A stretch of 64,000 nt of DNA, taken from assembly GCA_950295325.1 (NCBI GenBank), contig OX485806.1:11470001-11534000 (forward strand), written 5' to 3'. The notes under the pieces are model-generated. The model searched no databases. It was not told the origin of the DNA and was given only the letters and a program-made list of their open reading frames with translations. The DNA comes from Polytrichum commune. Lineage: Eukaryota > Streptophyta > Polytrichopsida > Polytrichales > Polytrichaceae. Shown here piece after piece: positions 3,892 through 55,300 of the stretch. Both the position numbers and the translations under genes were made by a program. Within the stretch, counting starts at the first letter, position 1. The number at the start of each line of letters is the position of its first letter.

Positions 3892-4815
3892 ACCCCTAAA
3901 GGACCGGGGGTGTTTTAGCTTAGGTCATGTTTTCTTGATTAGCTCTTGTAGCAAGCTCAATTTCTTATTAGAGTGGGGTAATTTTCACGATCGGCACCGT
4001 TGAAACTAAAGAAGACTTACATAGCTTGTTTATGAAAAAAAGATCAACAAGATCGCACAATTTCTGAGAAATTGCCACCGTCGAGAAGATTGATGGAAAT
4101 TGTTTGGGCACGGGGTACTTTGTACTTATGCTGGAATCAGATTGCTTAGAAGTGCTCCAAAACATCTAAAACATTTACCACATGTAAAGAGCATTATGAC
4201 CCTCATGTGGAATTTTTTTCGTCAAATTCTGAGGTGTGGAAAAAAAGATATGGGACTCTGAAGTCTCCAAGCAATGAGATTGGGCCCAAAAATTGAAAAC
4301 TCAAAGAATTCGCCAAAAATCCAATCCTTCATCATTTTCTAGATCGGAAAAGACCATTGGATCCATCTCGCAAAAACAACCAGGGTCCTTTCCTCGCAAA
4401 TTTGGGCTTCTTTGGAACAATCTCATCCAATTTGCTTTTTTCTACAATCAAAAGCCCCCTGGGGGCCTTACGGTCCTTAGAAGTGCTCCAAAACATTTGA
4501 AATTTTTACCACATGTAAAGAACATTATGACCCTCATGTGGAATTTTTTTCGTCAAATTCTGAGGTGTGGAAAAAAAGATATGGGACTCTGAAGTCTCCA
4601 AGCAATGAGATTGGGCCAAAAACTGAAAACTCAAAGAATTCGCCAAAAATCCAATCCTTCATCATTTTCCGATCGGAAAAGACCATTGGATCCATCTCGC
4701 AAAAACAGCCAGGGTCCTCTCCTCGCAAATTTGGGCTTCTTTGGAACAATCTCATCCAATTTGCACTTTTCTACAATCAAAAGCCCCCTGGGGGCCTTAC
4801 GGTCCTTTAGGGGTT
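3892..4815. mobile_element. Inverted-repeat element with internal tandem duplication
   Basis: The 16-base ends AACCCCTAAAGGACCG (3892-3907) and CGGTCCTTTAGGGGTT (4800-4815) are perfect complements. Inside, a unit of about 331 bases starting at 4146 is repeated at 4477 with few changes. Shared words are 'agaagtgctccaaaac', 'cgtcaaattctgaggtgtgg' and 'aagccccctgggggcc'. A similar terminal sequence, 'cctttaggggttaagcg', recurs at about 5723-5740. No transposase is seen. Confidence 0.6.
4146..4808. repeat. Tandem duplication, about 331-base unit, two copies
   Basis: Unit 1 begins at 4146 ('ttagaagtgctccaaaac') and unit 2 at 4477 with the same words. Both end at 'cttacggtcctt'. Divergence is only a few substitutions and small indels, so the duplication looks younger than the surrounding repeats. 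Confidence 0.8.
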
Positions 4816-20269: not shown

Positions 20270-20344
20270 CTGCCAGTCACTCTGCATGAGCTTCTCATAA
20301 CCACACTAATAAATACATAAGTTGACAGTCCTAGACAACCGTCT

Positions 20345-20764
20345 TCCGTTTGTGGAAAAAAAAAATACAAAGCCCTATCCAAAATCATCAAAGAAGCCCT
20401 ACACCAAGTCCACACAATATTCCCATCACAAATCAAACAAGAACCAAACTCCGTAACCGAACAACCCACATCACAACAAAATGAGCACTTAACCATGCTA
20501 TTACAACCTCACGACACCAACGGTACCCCTGTCCAAGCAATCACCAATGAGAGAATAAGAAAATGCAAAGACAAATGGGGCGCCCAAGCGACACACCTAC
20601 AGTACTTATGTACATGGCAAACCCCTAATGACACCTTAAAAAAATGGGTTGACGAACAACATGTCCTCCACAAAGACAATCTAACCTACGAACACAACGT
20701 CGCCTTGGTACACAACTTCCTTTGAGCCAAACATAACACCCAAACATTAAACAAATACCCAAAA
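20345..20764 (+). pseudogene. LINE-like element, linker segment upstream of the MTase-like region
   Basis: An open segment reads KYKALSKIIKEALHQVH, then ITNERIRKCKDKWGAQATHL, then KKWVDEQHVLHKDNLTYEH, then a TGA at 20723-20725 followed in frame by AKHNTQTLNKYPKEFHNP. It is hydrophilic, Lys/Gln/His-rich and without recognisable catalytic motifs. I read it as the part lying between the missing reverse transcriptase and the next domain. The frame is broken by at least one stop, and another frame takes over by about 20880. Confidence 0.5.
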
Positions 20765-20969
20765 GAATTCCACAATCCATAATCAAACGACACAAGATTT
20801 GTGAGGACCCCAATAATAGCCCCACCGCACACTCATTACTTAAGAATGTAACCCAAATAAAGACATCCAAGCCCAACAACCCACAATACAAATCCAACTA
20901 GAAAACGCCCATATATTTGACCACAATGGATCACACTTAACTACCCTTACACTATAAAGAATACAATAG

Positions 20970-22298
20970 CTATGGGAAAAATATAACGAAAACCGCACCA
21001 ACCCACAACTCATAGCACTATATCCCCCCCCGCCCAAAAAAAAAATTACCACAAAAATAGTAGGACTTCTCCATATATATGTAACAAACTTACCTAAGAA
21101 GAAACCAAAAACAATACCCTCCAACAACCAACACAAGTCACTAAACCAATCAATTATAAAACTACTAATAGACACATTCACAATCACACACTCATACTAC
21201 TCCTCACCACTCACATGCCCCACAACACTAGAAAACTACAACTCACTCCACCAAAGAGACGCCATATTTGGCTCGCAAGGCCGAGCGCTAGCAACACAAT
21301 GGCAAGGTATAGACATCACGCACCCCACCAACCACCAAACTACAAATGAAGCAATCCATTGGGCCAAAATGGCCGCCAAAGAAAATCCCGACAACATCAC
21401 AATTATGATCCTCAACCACAACGACTGGACACCTCAAAAATTAGCACTACTACAACAAGACATACATATCATAGCCACTATCCCACTCAATACCCTCCGA
21501 CACTCAACAAAACCCCAATGGCCACTCTACTACAACCAACTAGAACCATCACTTACAACTATTGTATGTGTGCATAGCCTAGACTCCTCACCCACTAAAC
21601 AAACATTCGCAAACCAACTACAAAAATTCATTCAAGAAAAATACAATATCATTATCCCCACCCACAACCCCACAATCACCATAAGGCCATATAAAGTAAA
21701 CACATCAAAAAAATGGACAAATGCCCCCAAAACAACATACATAACCCCCACCCCACCCCAAACACCATCCATGCCAGACAAATTTTTTATACCAAAACCA
21801 CTCAAATACGACCTATCAAAAAGTCTATACATGGATGGCTTCTTCATACCACTAAACATACTCTGCACTGAGCTCTATGCTATATGGCTAGCCCTTGCCA
21901 ACATACATAACCCCACACATGATGTCCACATCTTCACCGACGGTTTGAACAGTATATACCTCCTAAACAACCACATAAGACAATCATCCTCCCAACATAA
22001 CCACCTAGACAAACTCCTCATTGCCTCCATAATACACCTCATTACATGGTTCCTATACAAAATTACAATACAAAAAGTCAAAACCCATACATGCATCCAA
22101 GGGAACAAACAAGCACTGGCCACCGAGGGCACCAATAAAATTGCCATAACCTCAATACCGCACATGGTCATAGCACAAACTACACCCTATAGGCTTGCAA
22201 AACCACCCTCAACAACCAACCTCCACAAAATAATAAGGAACCTAAAAACTTTCATAAACAAAGAACACAATAGGGTCACAGTTGAAAAAACCAAATAG
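20970..22298 (+). pseudogene. LINE-like element, MTase-like plus RNase H segment (443-codon open frame)
   Basis: Open without a stop from 20970 to the TAG at 22296; homologous-looking sequence extends upstream in the same frame to about 20880 through two stops. The first half reads YYSSPLTCP (21195), FGSQGR (21267-21284), a block around ITHPT (21315-21329) and ITIMILNHNDW. This order resembles the Rossmann-type adenine methyltransferase region of PCIF1-like proteins, by recollection only. The NPPF/DPPY catalytic motif is absent, HPT standing near its place. The second half is RNase H: YMDGF (Asp near 21834), TELYAIWLALA, IFTDGLNSIYLL, and THTCIQGNKQALATEG. The last usually contains GN-D-x-x-D, so a catalytic Asp looks lost. 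The gap between the first Asp and the Glu is only 12 residues, pointing to an internal deletion. Confidence 0.6.
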
Positions 22299-22545
22299 TT
22301 CCACTACGCGGTTAAATGGATCTCTTACGACCAACTATAGATGCCGAATCACTCAAATCTTAAAATTCAAAACCGCCCAATATATGGGTGACCATAACCT
22401 CGTCTGGCCCCTCAAATTCACCAACCCCAACTGCACAGTACATCCAAATAACGACAAAGACACATGGCCACACCTACTATCTACATGCAACCACAAATTC
22501 CTCAAAGGCCTCAAAATAGCAAGACACGATGCCACAACCCACTGA
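22299..22545 (+). pseudogene. LINE-like element, Cys/His knuckle segment
   Basis: After a frame change the sequence continues TQILKFKTAQYMGDHNLVWP, then PNCTVHPNNDKDTWPHLLST and a Cys, ending in a TGA at 22543-22545. The wording (hydrophobic fragment, then C-x-x-H...DTW-x-H-L-L-x-x-C) is the reverse-transcriptase-associated zinc knuckle seen downstream of RNase H in many LINEs. The second Cys is His here. The copy on the minus strand near 28.6 kb keeps CPLC at this place. Confidence 0.6.
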
Positions 22546-22639
22546 TTGGCCAACCTACTTAAATCATGTATCCACACAAGACACCATACACTCACAAACG
22601 TTGGCAAAATCGACCACAAGACAACACCATCCCACCGTG

Positions 22640-22975
22640 GATACTCCCATGTTCATGCCTAACAACTAAATGCACATGCCTAGCAAGGCTAAGACCATAC
22701 ATCTTATACATCCAAGGAGCACTGTACGAACAACCTAAGCCACATATCCGAACCCCCACCTAACCATCCAAATAATAGTATTCACATTCACACATGACAA
22801 ATACACAACCCTAGCCACTGAAACCAAAAGAGACAAATACAACCCCTTCATAAATACCGTTAAAACACAAGGATGGCAAGTCAACCCCCTCATGGTCATC
22901 ACCGCAAGATTTCGTGGCTCCATACACACAAGAAGTATCGAACTACTAGAAAGCTTACATCCCCCGCCCCTAATG
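22640..22975 (+). pseudogene. LINE-like element, restriction-like endonuclease (REL) remnant
   Basis: Two frames together read CTCLARLRPYILYIQGALYE, a stop at 22761-22763, then IQIIVFTFTHDKY, KRDKYNPF, GWQVNPLMVITARFRGSIHT and SIELLESLH. This fits the REL nuclease of LINEs, with pattern R-P-D...(E)-F-T...K..KY...GW. The Asp is Tyr (codon 22698-22700) and the Glu is Val (codon 22778-22780), so the nuclease should be inactive. A frame change lies between the two halves. Confidence 0.55.
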
Positions 22976-23190
22976 CCTTGAAGAAATCAATGAACACCAT
23001 TCACCACATCCCAATCAAATACCTCACATATCTAGTACTTAACAAAAGAAAACTAGAGAATAAACAAAATCCCATACAACCTCCCACATAGGAGCCACTC
23101 CCCCCACATACACACACCCAATTCCTAAAACAAAATAACCAACGAATTTCAACAACATTAACAACAATAAACATATATTCACATATAATT

Positions 23191-25231
23191 CAATGGTTGC
23201 AAAGTCCAGTGGATGAGGAAGTTCAATACATATAAAAAAAACCGTCTATATATTTAGAATACACACTTGCGAGATTTTGAATTTTCAAATATGGAGTTCA
23301 CACGTGTTATTTGAGAGGTGTTCAAAGCTCATCAGTTGAATGATAAATGTCTCTCATAATGAACAATTTTGAATGCCAATTTCACACATGTTTGGTTCAG
23401 GATGTTGCCGACACTACACAAAATGACCGTTCTTACAATAAACAACACCCATGGGCATGGAATATGGGGTTCCTCCTCCTCCTCCTCCTCCAAAGTAGCC
23501 GGTGTGTCGGGATTAGGGTATAGGCTTCCTTGAACATCTCAATCCCCGTGCCGTATGTAAGGTGAGCGGTTGTACTCTAGATGATGTGACTCGGACTGCC
23601 ATAGTATTATCTCGATATAAATCTTGTCACAAGAATCAAGTGTTTCACGTGATCCATCCATTAGTCAATCCACTACATACAACAAATTATCACGGACACA
23701 AATGTGGCAACATCTTGAAGGTTGGTGAGGTAGTTGACCACCACACCAATTCCCGTTACTTGTGAAGTTGACATGTGAGGAGATGTGTTGGACTCGTATA
23801 TCATCCACTTGGGCATATAGGATGAGGTTTTTCAATTCCACTTTGTTGGTACATGTAGTAGAGTGTGGGTATTTGAGGACCTCTTTCATGTTTTGATATC
23901 GTTGGGTGAGAGTTATATACATGGTGCAAAAATTATGCGTACCTATGATTTAGTGTACTCTATCGATATGGTTTTAGAATGGTGATCATTGACCCAACAC
24001 TTGCTTAAATAATAATTTTGATACGCAAATGTGCATGTCATTACATTTTCTAAGCATTTATTTTATTTTATGGGATTGCATTCCATTCTAGAAGATTAGA
24101 ACAACGTTCCACAATAGTTGACTCGGCAGTGTTATGGATACTCTTCCGGTTCAATGTTGAATCTACACCTTGGAGAATCTTAGAGGACCGATTTGGACAA
24201 AATCCTCAACATGGTCCCACTCTACATGGGGCAACAAGTGAATAATGCTTTGTGAAACCACATAATATTGATGTTTGATTGGTACTTCAATTTTGATACT
24301 GATCAGATGTGATCTTCGGAACCATTAATAGTATCATTCATCGACCATGCACTCACCTATATATCAATCCAATATTGGTAAGAATACTACATGCAATACA
24401 CTGATATATGCAGTCAAGTTGCCTTCACGAACTTGCCACCTCTTTACCCATGCAAATCACCTTGTGTCAAAACTAGATCACAAAAACTCATAACTTGATC
24501 TATCAACGCTTATGACAATTGCAGCAAATTAAATTAAATTAAAAAGCACTTCATGTACTCCTTGCCCCGGGCTAGATCACATCTTCATTTGGCTGGGCCC
24601 CGTCCTTCCCACCCCTCCTTCACTGCCCGGTCTTCCTGTCCGCACCTACATGGGAACTCTTCCCCGTTGGAAACGAATGGTCACTTAGGCCATAAAGCTC
24701 CTTTGGCACGCGAAGGAACTCCACCAATCAACTTGAGAATAATGAAAGTGATATCAACTTGAATATTTGTAATTTTGACCGGGGTATTATCACATTGGTT
24801 CCCATCGAGGAAAAGTTCCCACGCAGGTGCAAGCAAGAAGATTGGACAGTGAAGGAGACGTGGGAGGGGTGGGATCCAGCCAAATGAAGATGTGATGTAG
24901 CCCGGGGCATATTTCTTGTTATTGCGATAAGAATGTATTCCAAAAAAGTTTTGAAATGCAATTTGATTTTGTTTGGTTAATATACATCAATTTTGAAGAC
25001 CGCTTCACTTATCCAACAGGAAGGAGGGTGGCTGCTGCCTAGCTAGTCCGTATCCATGGACACCTGAAATGTCCCTGTATCCCAAACCAACTGTAAAGTG
25101 CATGCGATGATATTTGTCCACAAAAACACACACATCTGATCATTGCACTTTTCTTCCCTTCAACCTTTCCGCTGTCCAGATCTTGATTTATACATAAGTT
25201 TTGATTTTTGTTTTCATTTTTTTTAAGTGTC
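23191..25231. other. Intergenic stretch with a trinucleotide repeat
   Basis: A CTC/CCT tract lies at about 23471-23491. Segments near 24565-24670 and 24790-24910 are related in inverted orientation ('agatcacatcttcatttggc' versus its complement), a small inverted duplication. No gene is supported. Confidence 0.4.
24560..24910. repeat. Small inverted duplication
   Basis: The plus-strand text 'ccccgggctagatcacatct' and 'ttcactgcccggtcttcctg' near 24565-24640 reappears as the complement near 24840-24910 ('gacagtgaaggagacgtgg', 'gatgtgatgtagcccggggc'). The arms are about 80-120 bases around a spacer of about 120. Confidence 0.55.
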
Positions 25232-28189: not shown

Positions 28190-29045
28190 TGGTTGGTGAG
28201 ATTCATGTGGTTGAAGGTGTTAACCTCATTTTCTTGTTGTGTGGTTGTGTTGAGGAAACGGTTGTGGACGAATGTAAATTCAATATAGTGGAGTGTGAAG
28301 TAGGGGGAAGGGTAGGATGGGAGGGAGTCATGAATGTGGAGGCCTTCAATGAGTAGGATGTCTAGTTATAGGCACGTGAGGCACGAGCATGATGTTGAGG
28401 GGCATATACGTGGAAGGAACCAATTTGCTATTGTATTTTTGGTTGGGTAGGAGGGAGAGTATTTTCCGTTGGTTAGACATTGCTAGCACGTTTGAAGGTT
28501 GGAAAGGATGAGTTCTTTGATGTGGTCAAGGCCTTTATTATGTTGGTCAATGCTGTAGACCATGAAGAGTAGGATGTTGGCAATGGGCAAGTACATTGGG
28601 CCACGTGTCGATTCGGGTGATGCTTGTTTTGCAAAGGGGGCATAAAGGCATTAGACCTTTTTGGGCAAGAAGAGGTGGTTCCGACAATGACCCATATATT
28701 GACCATTTTGAAATCTAAGTGTTTGAGTGATGTGGGGGCCAAGAATGTCTAGATGTTCCTATAAGGTGTTGGAGAGGGTGGCGTCAAGAGATTTGTTGTT
28801 GATCCATTTGTGGAGGATATCCAATAATTGGGTACAATGGTTGTTTGAAGGAATTGTTGGTCAAATAGAAGGAGTTGGGGCCTTTTCAAAAGTGTTTGCT
28901 ATGTAAGTAGTGGGGAGATGAGTAGTAGATGTGAATGGTAGTTTCATCTGAAATCTTTGTATGGAACGTGTAGAAGAGCAAGCCTTATTTGGCAAGTTTG
29001 TACATGATGTCATTGCCTTTTATTCAAGTGTAAGACTAGATCTTG
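28190..29045 (-). mobile_element. Second copy of the LINE-like element (RNase H tail, knuckle, REL), heavily decayed
   Basis: Read on the minus strand through several frames it gives GNDIMYKLAK (about 29017-28988, RNase H end), QTLRFQNGQYMGHCRNHLFL, CPLCKTS (28642-28622) with DTWPNVLAHC, CSCLTC followed by LDILLIEGL (about 28365-28342) and IEFTFVHNRF (about 28287-28258). Each block lines up in order with the element at 20.3-23.2 kb. Here the REL Asp and Glu are both kept, unlike the first copy. Stops and frameshifts are frequent. The 5' and 3' limits are uncertain. Confidence 0.55.
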
Positions 29046-52302: not shown

Positions 52303-55300
52303 AATCCCATAATTGAGTGGCTAGGGCTAGACGGGGTGAATAATGCCAACACGATTCAGTTTTGTCACACTTACCGAGGGGGCTTACTAAGTCAAAACCC
52401 ACCCCTTTAGGTTTGTTGTTGGTTTATACTAATTTAAGTACATTTGACTAATTTGGGTTCTTGTTTGATCCAGGGGTTAATATTTCAAAAGATAGCAAAC
52501 TTCAGGTTGTATATTAACAAAGAACATTTTTCATCCTCCCCCTTGGTGAGGGGTTGTGAACAATACCTACCAAAGGGGAGGGTAAACCATGGGAGAGGAG
52601 GGTAAACCATACTCATCATTAATGTAGATCATGGATGTTCCTATTTTAAGGAAAAAGTAACTCTTAGGTTTATCATGATTGGAGACCCCAAGTTGGTCCA
52701 GTGAGCATAAATTGGGATGGGCCAACAACAAACCTATAAGGGGCATGCTTTTAATGTTCCCCCTTGGTAGGTGTTATGAAACAAAACCATCTGGACACTT
52801 TGCCTTTTGAGATAGGCCTCAAAAGTATTAGCTAAGGTGGAAAGGTAGTCACTTCTGTAATAGCAAGTATACATCATTTTTTAAGTTGATTTTGATCCTG
52901 TAGTTAGCAACAAAGACCCCAAAATAGTGCAAGGGGACCCACACATCTACAGGGTCATGTTTTTACTAAACCCCCTTCACCTTAGTAACATTGGTGAGGG
53001 CCCTCAAAGACAAGGCCTCTACTCATGACCCTTTGATGCAATCTTTAAGTTGCCATATAAAGAGGGTCCCAGTGTGAGTTGGGGTTTTATTGAGTTAGGG
53101 TCACAAGAATCAAACAAGACACTTCTCAAGCTCTTCATCGTTGGTTCATCTAACCAAAAAAATTGCCACGGGGAAGACACATCACATGCATACGAACGTG
53201 AATATGATATGTGGAATAGTTGCATGCAGTGAGTAGGAAAAAACGTCCAAAACTCATGTTTGACCCGAAGTTGACATGTTTACAAAATCTAGACTTTTTG
53301 GTTAACTAGATCACATGGGCAGATTGTACTCGTTGTACTCATAATCTAGTATTTGCGTCCTCACCAGCTGATGTATCCAAACCCCACCGATCAAAACTCC
53401 TACAAACTTCTCCAAACATTTTCACCATGTTGGCTTGCGATCGAGTACATTCAATAATTCTTATTGGTCCCTCAACTACGCCACCCATCCCAAAAAAAAA
53501 TACAACAACATGGGGACGAAGAGACTCTTCACTCATGCGTGCTCCCTAGGGAGCTAACATTCACATCTATCTACCTCTAGTCTTGAGATGATTCGTACTA
53601 GGAGTTCAATACTTCAAAGGCTTTTCATGGTGGTGTAACAAACATGCATAGAAGCACCTTTGATTGTGAGACATTTTCTGACATTGTACTTGAAACCCTA
53701 CACGGCCATAAAGTTGGGTTAAGATTTATGGCATACATAGTCCAACATGAAGCCCCTTTGAAGCATGGTGTCCAAGATTCGGAACCATGTGGTCAAGACT
53801 TAGGGAGTAAAGCTTTAGTTGTGACATGTCAATACATGATTCGCCAAATGTTTTTTAAACCACAACCACCATAGTACCTCACCTATCGGTTTCAAACACT
53901 TCGGGTGTTGAAGTTGAGCTCAATTTTATGCCACGTCATCAACCTTTGCAAATGATCCGACCGACAATTTTGTTTGACACACAGCACCCACTCGCTCCAA
54001 AATAATAATTGATTGATGTTGATGAGGTCCAAGTTAGTACTCCTACAGTATTATAACTTGTAGTGGGTCCGCTAGCGACATTTCTCTTGCTCTCTCATAT
54101 GGGAGTGTGGGAACTAGCATAATGTATGCCTGCCATAAAACAGTCCCCGAGTCTCTTGTGTCATTATCAATAGGTTAGTGTTGAAATAAAGGTTGTAAAT
54201 GCACTTAACATTATCAAGCAATGTACGTTCGTTCATCGGGGTCTTAAGAGTACAATCGTGGGATGCCACAGCTAGTGCATAATCATTCTTCACTTATTTT
54301 GGTCACCTCTGCAAGATGAACAATACTCAATCTTAGTATTATTCAGTTTGTCGAGGTGAACAAACATGCGGGGTCATGCTACTAGGAAGTTATTGAATAT
54401 TATTAATGTGATACATGTTAGTCAAAACACATCAGTTGGCATGCCGTGTGGGGCCCAACAACGGTTGGGCAGGTTGTAACAGAATCTCTTATCATGTATG
54501 TTGGGTAGGTTCCAACAAAATCTTTGAAGTTCCCCCTTTTGGAAAGGGAGCTTTGCCCCTAGGTTATGTAATGTTAAAGCCATATCCCCTAACACAAATA
54601 TCATAATACAATTGATGGAGCTCACCTTTTGTCATGACGTATGCACAAAGACATCAACACACACACACACACACAAACTAACTACAATGTCTTAATATAC
54701 GCAACTAGAAACAAAAATTGGAAAGCTAAGTCCCTTATAGTAATCAATGTCGGCGTAAGGGGGAGCATACACACAACAATCATGAAACAACTCAAAGACA
54801 TTTAAATCCTACCCTTACAAATACATATATAATGAAAGACTTGCACCAAACCTCGATCAAAGACCTAACCAACTTTTCCCTAAACAAGAGGAAATTGGAC
54901 AATAAGAAAAACCCAATCGTAGCCCCCTCCCCATGCCTTTCCCCTGCAAACTTGGATTAGGTAGAAACACACCACTTGAGTCCACCCACGTGGAGGGCAA
55001 TGTCAAATTTTTATTAAATTGCGTAAGAAAAAAATATAGGGTGTTTTTAATTCAAGGGAGAGGAAAATTATACAAATTCTGGAATTATTATAGCTTGGAT
55101 GAAATGACCCGCATAATAGTAAGTGAAAAATATAGGTAGTATTTAATTTTTATTAATGTAGTAAGGTCTATTATATTTGGAGGAATGAAGAATATATGTA
55201 AGGTTCAATGAATGTCTTTGGATTGGATGAGAAGTTGCCTTAATTGACTAAAAGTCATCAAATTTAGATGTTGGCAAGCTTGGTCACTGAGAATTTCAAG

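Follow-up and report, generated by a model that had tools for sequence, protein, structure and literature searches.

A PCIF1-like domain with a replaced catalytic motif between the reverse transcriptase and RNase H of a moss LINE

Does a LINE carry a methyltransferase-like domain between its reverse transcriptase (RT) and its RNase H, and if so, what is the domain kept for? The question was raised by a stretch of 64,000 nucleotides from the moss Polytrichum commune (GenBank assembly GCA_950295325.1, contig OX485806.1, positions 11,470,001 to 11,534,000 of the forward strand), hereafter called the window. An earlier note, made from the letters of this stretch, had proposed that a segment directly upstream of an RNase H domain resembles the fold of PCIF1- or phage-type adenine methyltransferases, and that the NPPF-like catalytic motif of these enzymes is not preserved in it.

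Homology of the window domain to PCIF1

The peptides quoted for the proposed domain, YYSSPLTCP, FGSQGR, HPT and ITIMILNHNDW, were all found in one frame (20970-22298, plus strand), which extends from stop to stop over 442 codons. The region 20970-21620 matches the Pfam family PF12237 (PCIF1_WW, the PCIF1 methyltransferase region) with an E-value of 1.3e-7 and 31.8 bits, the curated cut-off of the family being 31.1 bits. The whole open reading frame (ORF) scores just below this cut-off (E 5.4e-7, 29.8 bits), and two shorter pieces of the frame still match the family (31.1 and 25.9 bits). The controls were negative for PCIF1: a reversed copy, four residue shuffles (scanned of eight made) and two further reading frames of this DNA. 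Single-sequence comparisons of the window protein were negative: phmmer returned nothing relevant from PDB, BLASTP gave no match to a piece of human PCIF1, and no significant match came from PHROGs or NCBIfam.

Twelve copies of the domain, including that of the window, were aligned, and PF12237 was matched by all 12 of these chosen copies. Searched against PDB up to an E-value of 10, the profile of the 12 sequences found two distinct sequences, both of them PCIF1 (2.6e-4 and 7.5e-3). Set against PCIF1 segments of human and zebrafish in hhalign, the LINE domain gave a probability of 93.5 and an E-value of 2.3e-7, with 25% identity over 128 columns, and its AHPHN was placed on ANPPF of PCIF1. 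Within the PCIF1 chains, the profile match does not extend beyond the methyltransferase part to the cap-binding helical domain. The resemblance of the window domain to PCIF1 is above chance, in agreement with the fold that the earlier note had guessed.

What the window holds of this abundant LINE (non-LTR retrotransposon) is a dead copy truncated at its 5' end; its parts are listed in Table 1. Strong GC and AT skew was observed over about 20-23 kb of the window, and the coding pieces of the copy lie in three frames, with stops. Its start near 20340 is apparently due to 5' truncation, and no RT was found in this copy. No convincing Pfam match was obtained for the upstream open-frame piece; by its position, it would correspond to the stretch that separates RT from the PCIF1-like domain. 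RNase H was likewise not detected by Pfam in the window copy. Elsewhere in the window, short pieces from the 3' part of related copies lie at 28342-28734 (minus strand) and 54576-54939 (plus strand), and positions 4145-4807 hold a tandem duplication of a 331-base unit in two copies with 96% matches.

Table 1. Parts of the LINE copy in the window, and related loci with a 2A-like peptide
Feature	Position	Strand	Basis or remark
Whole LINE remnant, 5'-truncated and decayed	20340..23200 (ends approximate)	+	Skew; coding pieces in three frames
Upstream open-frame piece	20321..20725	+	Taken, by position, as region between RT and PCIF1-like domain
Open frame of 442 codons with PCIF1-like domain and RNase H remnant	20970..22298	+	ORF list
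PCIF1-like (PF12237) match, frame residues 26-149	21045..21416	+	Pfam, E 1.3e-7; controls; relatives
YYSSPLTC, the SP-C stretch (FASPLNC in PCIF1)	21195..21218	+	Copy alignment; PCIF1 alignment
FGSQG, counterpart of PCIF1 FGSRG	21267..21281	+	Copy alignment; PCIF1 alignment
HPTN where PCIF1 has catalytic NPPF	21321..21332	+	Copy alignment; hhalign
ITIMILNHNDW, strand after the motif	21396..21428	+	Frame translation and copy alignment
RNase H remnant, internal deletion of ~34 residues	21822..22274	+	Alignment to intact relatives
Zinc-finger-like block (C..DTWPHLLSTCNH)	22258..22545	+	By eye against CPIC..DTWLHVLLKC of locus L012
C-terminal region resembling restriction-like endonuclease, motif only	22739..23070	+	By eye
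2A-like peptide in loci L010, L012, L013, L017, L019, L021, L022, L025 and L028	N-terminal part of LINE ORF		

Relatives and architecture of the element

The genome searched, in which the window lies, comprises 408 Mb in 64 contigs, at least seven of which are 42-78 Mb long. A search with PF12237 yielded 697 first-look candidates, and all 150 of the 150 that were scored exceeded the cut-off. With the window protein as query, 3503 first-look candidates were found, of which 95 were scored, giving 187 matches; the best other copy among these 95 is 55% identical to the window protein. Altogether 72 loci were retrieved, 20 of them about 10 kb long, and an open frame of more than 2,500 aa is present in five of these 20. 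Three copies are about 99% identical to locus L012 over 6.1-8.5 kb. A hairpin-like stretch (GCCGG..CCGG) and, behind it, a TATC-type repeat tail, (TATC)n, are shared by the 3' ends of eleven loci; the flanks beyond the tail differ between copies. The nearly identical copies, together with these shared 3' ends in differing surroundings, suggest that the LINE moved recently. Two loci, G000:C3:874345-874734 on a chromosome-size contig and G000:C24:11558-11947 on a 37-kb contig, have equal scores and open-frame lengths and are perhaps a redundant assembly or a recent duplication. A 113-aa piece of human PCIF1 gave no match in the genome, which is uninformative as to a host PCIF1 gene.

Three of the five ORFs above 2,500 aa were scanned with Pfam, and the order RVT_1, PCIF1_WW, RNase_H was found in all three, so that the position between RT and RNase H supposed in the earlier note is borne out in long ORFs of the same genome. 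These relatives speak against another fold or an ordinary connector for the segment. RNase H was detected in the three ORFs with scores of 3e-12 to 1.3e-14. No WW family was found in them at E-values up to 0.1, nor did Pfam find any further part of PCIF1. In PDB, the RT profile matched R2 best (5e-32), and LINE-1 ORF2 was matched with 6e-18. An RT of the non-LTR type, together with the absence of LTRs, the shared 3' hairpin, the (TATC)n tail and the differing flanks, identifies the element as a LINE.

An APE-type endonuclease sits upstream of the RT. Exo_endo_phos was detected in one of the three long ORFs (25.7 bits against a cut-off of 24.5), and when the N-terminal endonuclease region of seven copies was searched at E-values up to 0.01, Exo_endo_phos_2 was found in seven and Exo_endo_phos in six; the first APE member scored under its curated cut-off (22.3 against 27.4 bits). 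The L012 protein contains the motifs QET, GDFN, SDH, YADD, CPIC..H..C, RPD and IEFT, the last two of which give the C-terminus a likeness, by motif only, to a restriction-like endonuclease. A profile of the relatives' C-terminal region found nothing in PDB. A 2A-like ribosome-skipping peptide, GDIE[PST]NPGP, stands directly before MPNI in 9 of the 20 loci, truncated loci being counted with the others. The long-frame relatives encode a single polyprotein. From the N-terminus it comprises the APE endonuclease, the RT, the PCIF1-like domain and RNase H, followed by a block resembling a zinc finger and by a C-terminal part similar in its motifs to restriction-like endonucleases; in many copies the 2A-like peptide precedes all of these.

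The replaced motif, selection and co-inheritance

The absence of NPPF extends beyond the decayed copy in the window. None of the 69 aligned copies (that of the window plus 68 loci) has the motif, which rules out a decay confined to the window copy. The motif reads YAHPHN in 47 copies, YAHPHT in 15 and YAHPPN in four, with three singletons. Asn was found at the catalytic position in none of the 69, His in 68 and Tyr in one, and the following Pro is present in every copy. SSP and the C of the SP-C stretch are likewise invariant (69/69), as are F, G and the second G of FGS-G. The PCIF1 signature (SP-C, D..FGS-G and the following strands) is retained, and the NPPF loop is replaced. The loop reads HP[HPTY][NT], and FPTD in the clade nearest the window; among four further loci nearest the window, three have LAFPTD and one, a broken copy, has YAHPTN.

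Genome-wide, the expression W..G..GYAHP gave 226+194 = 420 exact matches (one for the reversed-pattern control), W..G..G[LF]AFP gave 45+37 (control 0) and W..G..GYANP gave one (control 0). This lone match with Asn at the motif lies at G000:C2:49738930-49738955. In 69 loci caught by the motif expression, the His codons are CAC in 33 and CAT in 32, the others being three Phe and one Tyr. The canonical loop was lost before the LINE subfamilies spread.

The ratio dN/dS was estimated by the NG86 method between subfamily representatives; with many dS values above 1, the figures are rough. It was found to be 0.06-0.24 for the PCIF1-like domain (17 of 21 pairs, four being dropped for saturated dS), 0.06-0.09 for the RT (6 of 10 pairs), 0.06-0.19 for RNase H (19 of 21 pairs) and 0.14-0.58 for the linker behind the PCIF1-like domain (13 of 15 pairs). 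Three pairs from the window clade gave about 0.18, 0.11 and 0.09 over 130 codons. The PCIF1-like domain is under purifying selection, with a constraint near that of RNase H, stronger than that of the linker and somewhat weaker than that of the RT. Identity in the domain follows identity in the RT closely (r = 0.986 over 91 pairs, which are non-independent). This divergence in step indicates that joint inheritance of the domain and the RT predates the split of these subfamilies. The loss of NPPF in every aligned copy, the purifying selection, the APE endonuclease and the 2A-like peptide (9/20) go beyond what the earlier note had claimed.

Proposed role and known systems

With homology to PCIF1, a place between RT and RNase H, a replaced motif, purifying selection and divergence in step with the RT, the domain is probably a non-catalytic domain of the PCIF1 type in a Dualen/RandI-like LINE, where it would serve as a connector that binds nucleic acid and links RT with RNase H. 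As the catalytic letters are replaced, the domain is probably kept for another job, and from its maintenance by selection without the NPPF loop we infer a role other than methylation. The connector would hold the RNA of the element or the RNA/cDNA hybrid, and this holding would assist target-primed reverse transcription. Such a role is suggested by analogy with retroviral RT, in which the connection domain, set between RT and RNase H, is a degenerate enzyme fold. PCIF1 mutants at N553 and F556 serve as inactive controls, and a Drosophila PCIF1 homologue is described as catalytically dead, in one report (PMC10544176). The conservation of His (68/69) and Pro (69/69), which would be unneeded at a functionless site, makes some chemistry possible and counts against a non-catalytic domain. 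The slightly weaker constraint on the domain than on the RT also counts against the proposed role.

It is unlikely that the domain has no connector role and acts instead as a cap- or SAM-binding regulator, which would bind the element RNA at its capped 5' end (or sense SAM) and thereby favour reverse transcription of the element's own mRNA. Homology to a cap-specific enzyme would suit such a regulator, as would the reported link of the catalytically dead Drosophila homologue to gene expression; however, PCIF1 is reported to recognise the cap via its helical domain (PMC10544176), and no further PCIF1 part was found by Pfam in the long ORFs.

A domain that is still an active methyltransferase, marking the RNA or cDNA of the element by means of an unorthodox His-Pro (or Phe-Pro) loop, is quite unlikely. 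The catalytic Asn and the aromatic residue of PCIF1 are both replaced, Phe takes the place of His in the clade nearest the window, and NPPF mutants of PCIF1 are described as inactive (PMC10544176), although His-Pro persists in 68 of 69 copies with CAC and CAT used equally, SP-C and FGS-G are invariant, and methyltransferases in retrotransposons have precedent (PMC5890265). It is equally doubtful that, while target-primed reverse transcription proceeds, a LINE-borne PCIF1-type methyltransferase with a rebuilt His-Pro loop modifies the RNA of its element or the cDNA being made; if it did, it would be a retrotransposon-encoded enzyme marking its own RNA/DNA hybrid. A resemblance that arose by chance, or from the richness of the strand in A and C, would fit the strongly skewed composition and the negative single-sequence PDB and BLASTP comparisons. 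It is ruled out by the negative controls (one reversed copy, four shuffles, two further frames) and by the independent copies and the family profile, which point to PCIF1 alone.

Dualen/RandI LINEs combine APE, RT and RNase H on a single protein, with a restriction-like endonuclease at the C-terminus and a simple-repeat 3' tail. The moss LINE shares the combination of these three and the type of tail, its C-terminus may be a second endonuclease, and by these features it may be called Dualen/RandI-like. It differs in the PCIF1-like domain between RT and RNase H and in the 2A-like peptide (9/20 loci), and no cysteine protease family was found in its three scanned ORFs. Two papers accompany this comparison (PMC4640811, PMC3747384).

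No relatives were found in viral, prokaryote, phage and plasmid collections. Jumbo-phage methylases are placed close to the PCIF1 clade in PMC7824862 and likewise reside in non-cellular genomes, but they are phage proteins; a tblastn search with one LINE domain gave no hit among 50,697 phage records, and one strict pattern (FGS..GSFF..NPP[FY]) found none in IMG/VR, which is weak evidence. The accessible part of a review of N6-adenosine methyltransferases gives PCIF1 from eukaryotes only and makes no mention of transposons (PMC8868631). In the literature on PCIF1 and retrotransposons, as represented by titles and opening abstract lines and with few subscription papers covered, no transposon-borne PCIF1 was found. 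Cytosine and Dam-type methyltransferases in retrotransposons are already known, and a PCIF1-type domain in a LINE appears new, which is short of proof of novelty.

According to PMC5890265, cytosine methyltransferases (DNMTs) were captured by LINE, DIRS and Gypsy retrotransposons, and these elements likewise hold a methyltransferase-type domain under purifying selection. The Symbiodinium LINEs described there carry the DNMT in an upstream ORF, whereas the moss domain is of the PCIF1 type, lies inside the RT-RNase H polyprotein and has its catalytic motif replaced. DIRS elements with a Dam-like adenine methyltransferase share with the moss LINE an adenine-methyltransferase-related domain in a retroelement, but their domain is of the Dam family and the element is of the tyrosine-recombinase type (PMC6338049, PMC5890265). 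The cap-specific adenosine N6-methyltransferase PCIF1/CAPAM (PDB 6irv, 6irx) has a homologous methyltransferase region and shares SP-C and FGS-G; unlike it, the LINE domain has NPPF replaced, sits in a LINE polyprotein and was found with no WW domain. Since the motif is replaced in every aligned copy and the domain is kept by selection, it can be asked with the LINE domain what a domain of the methyltransferase type can contribute to a retroelement when it does not methylate, and the Drosophila PCIF1 reported as catalytically dead can be compared with it.
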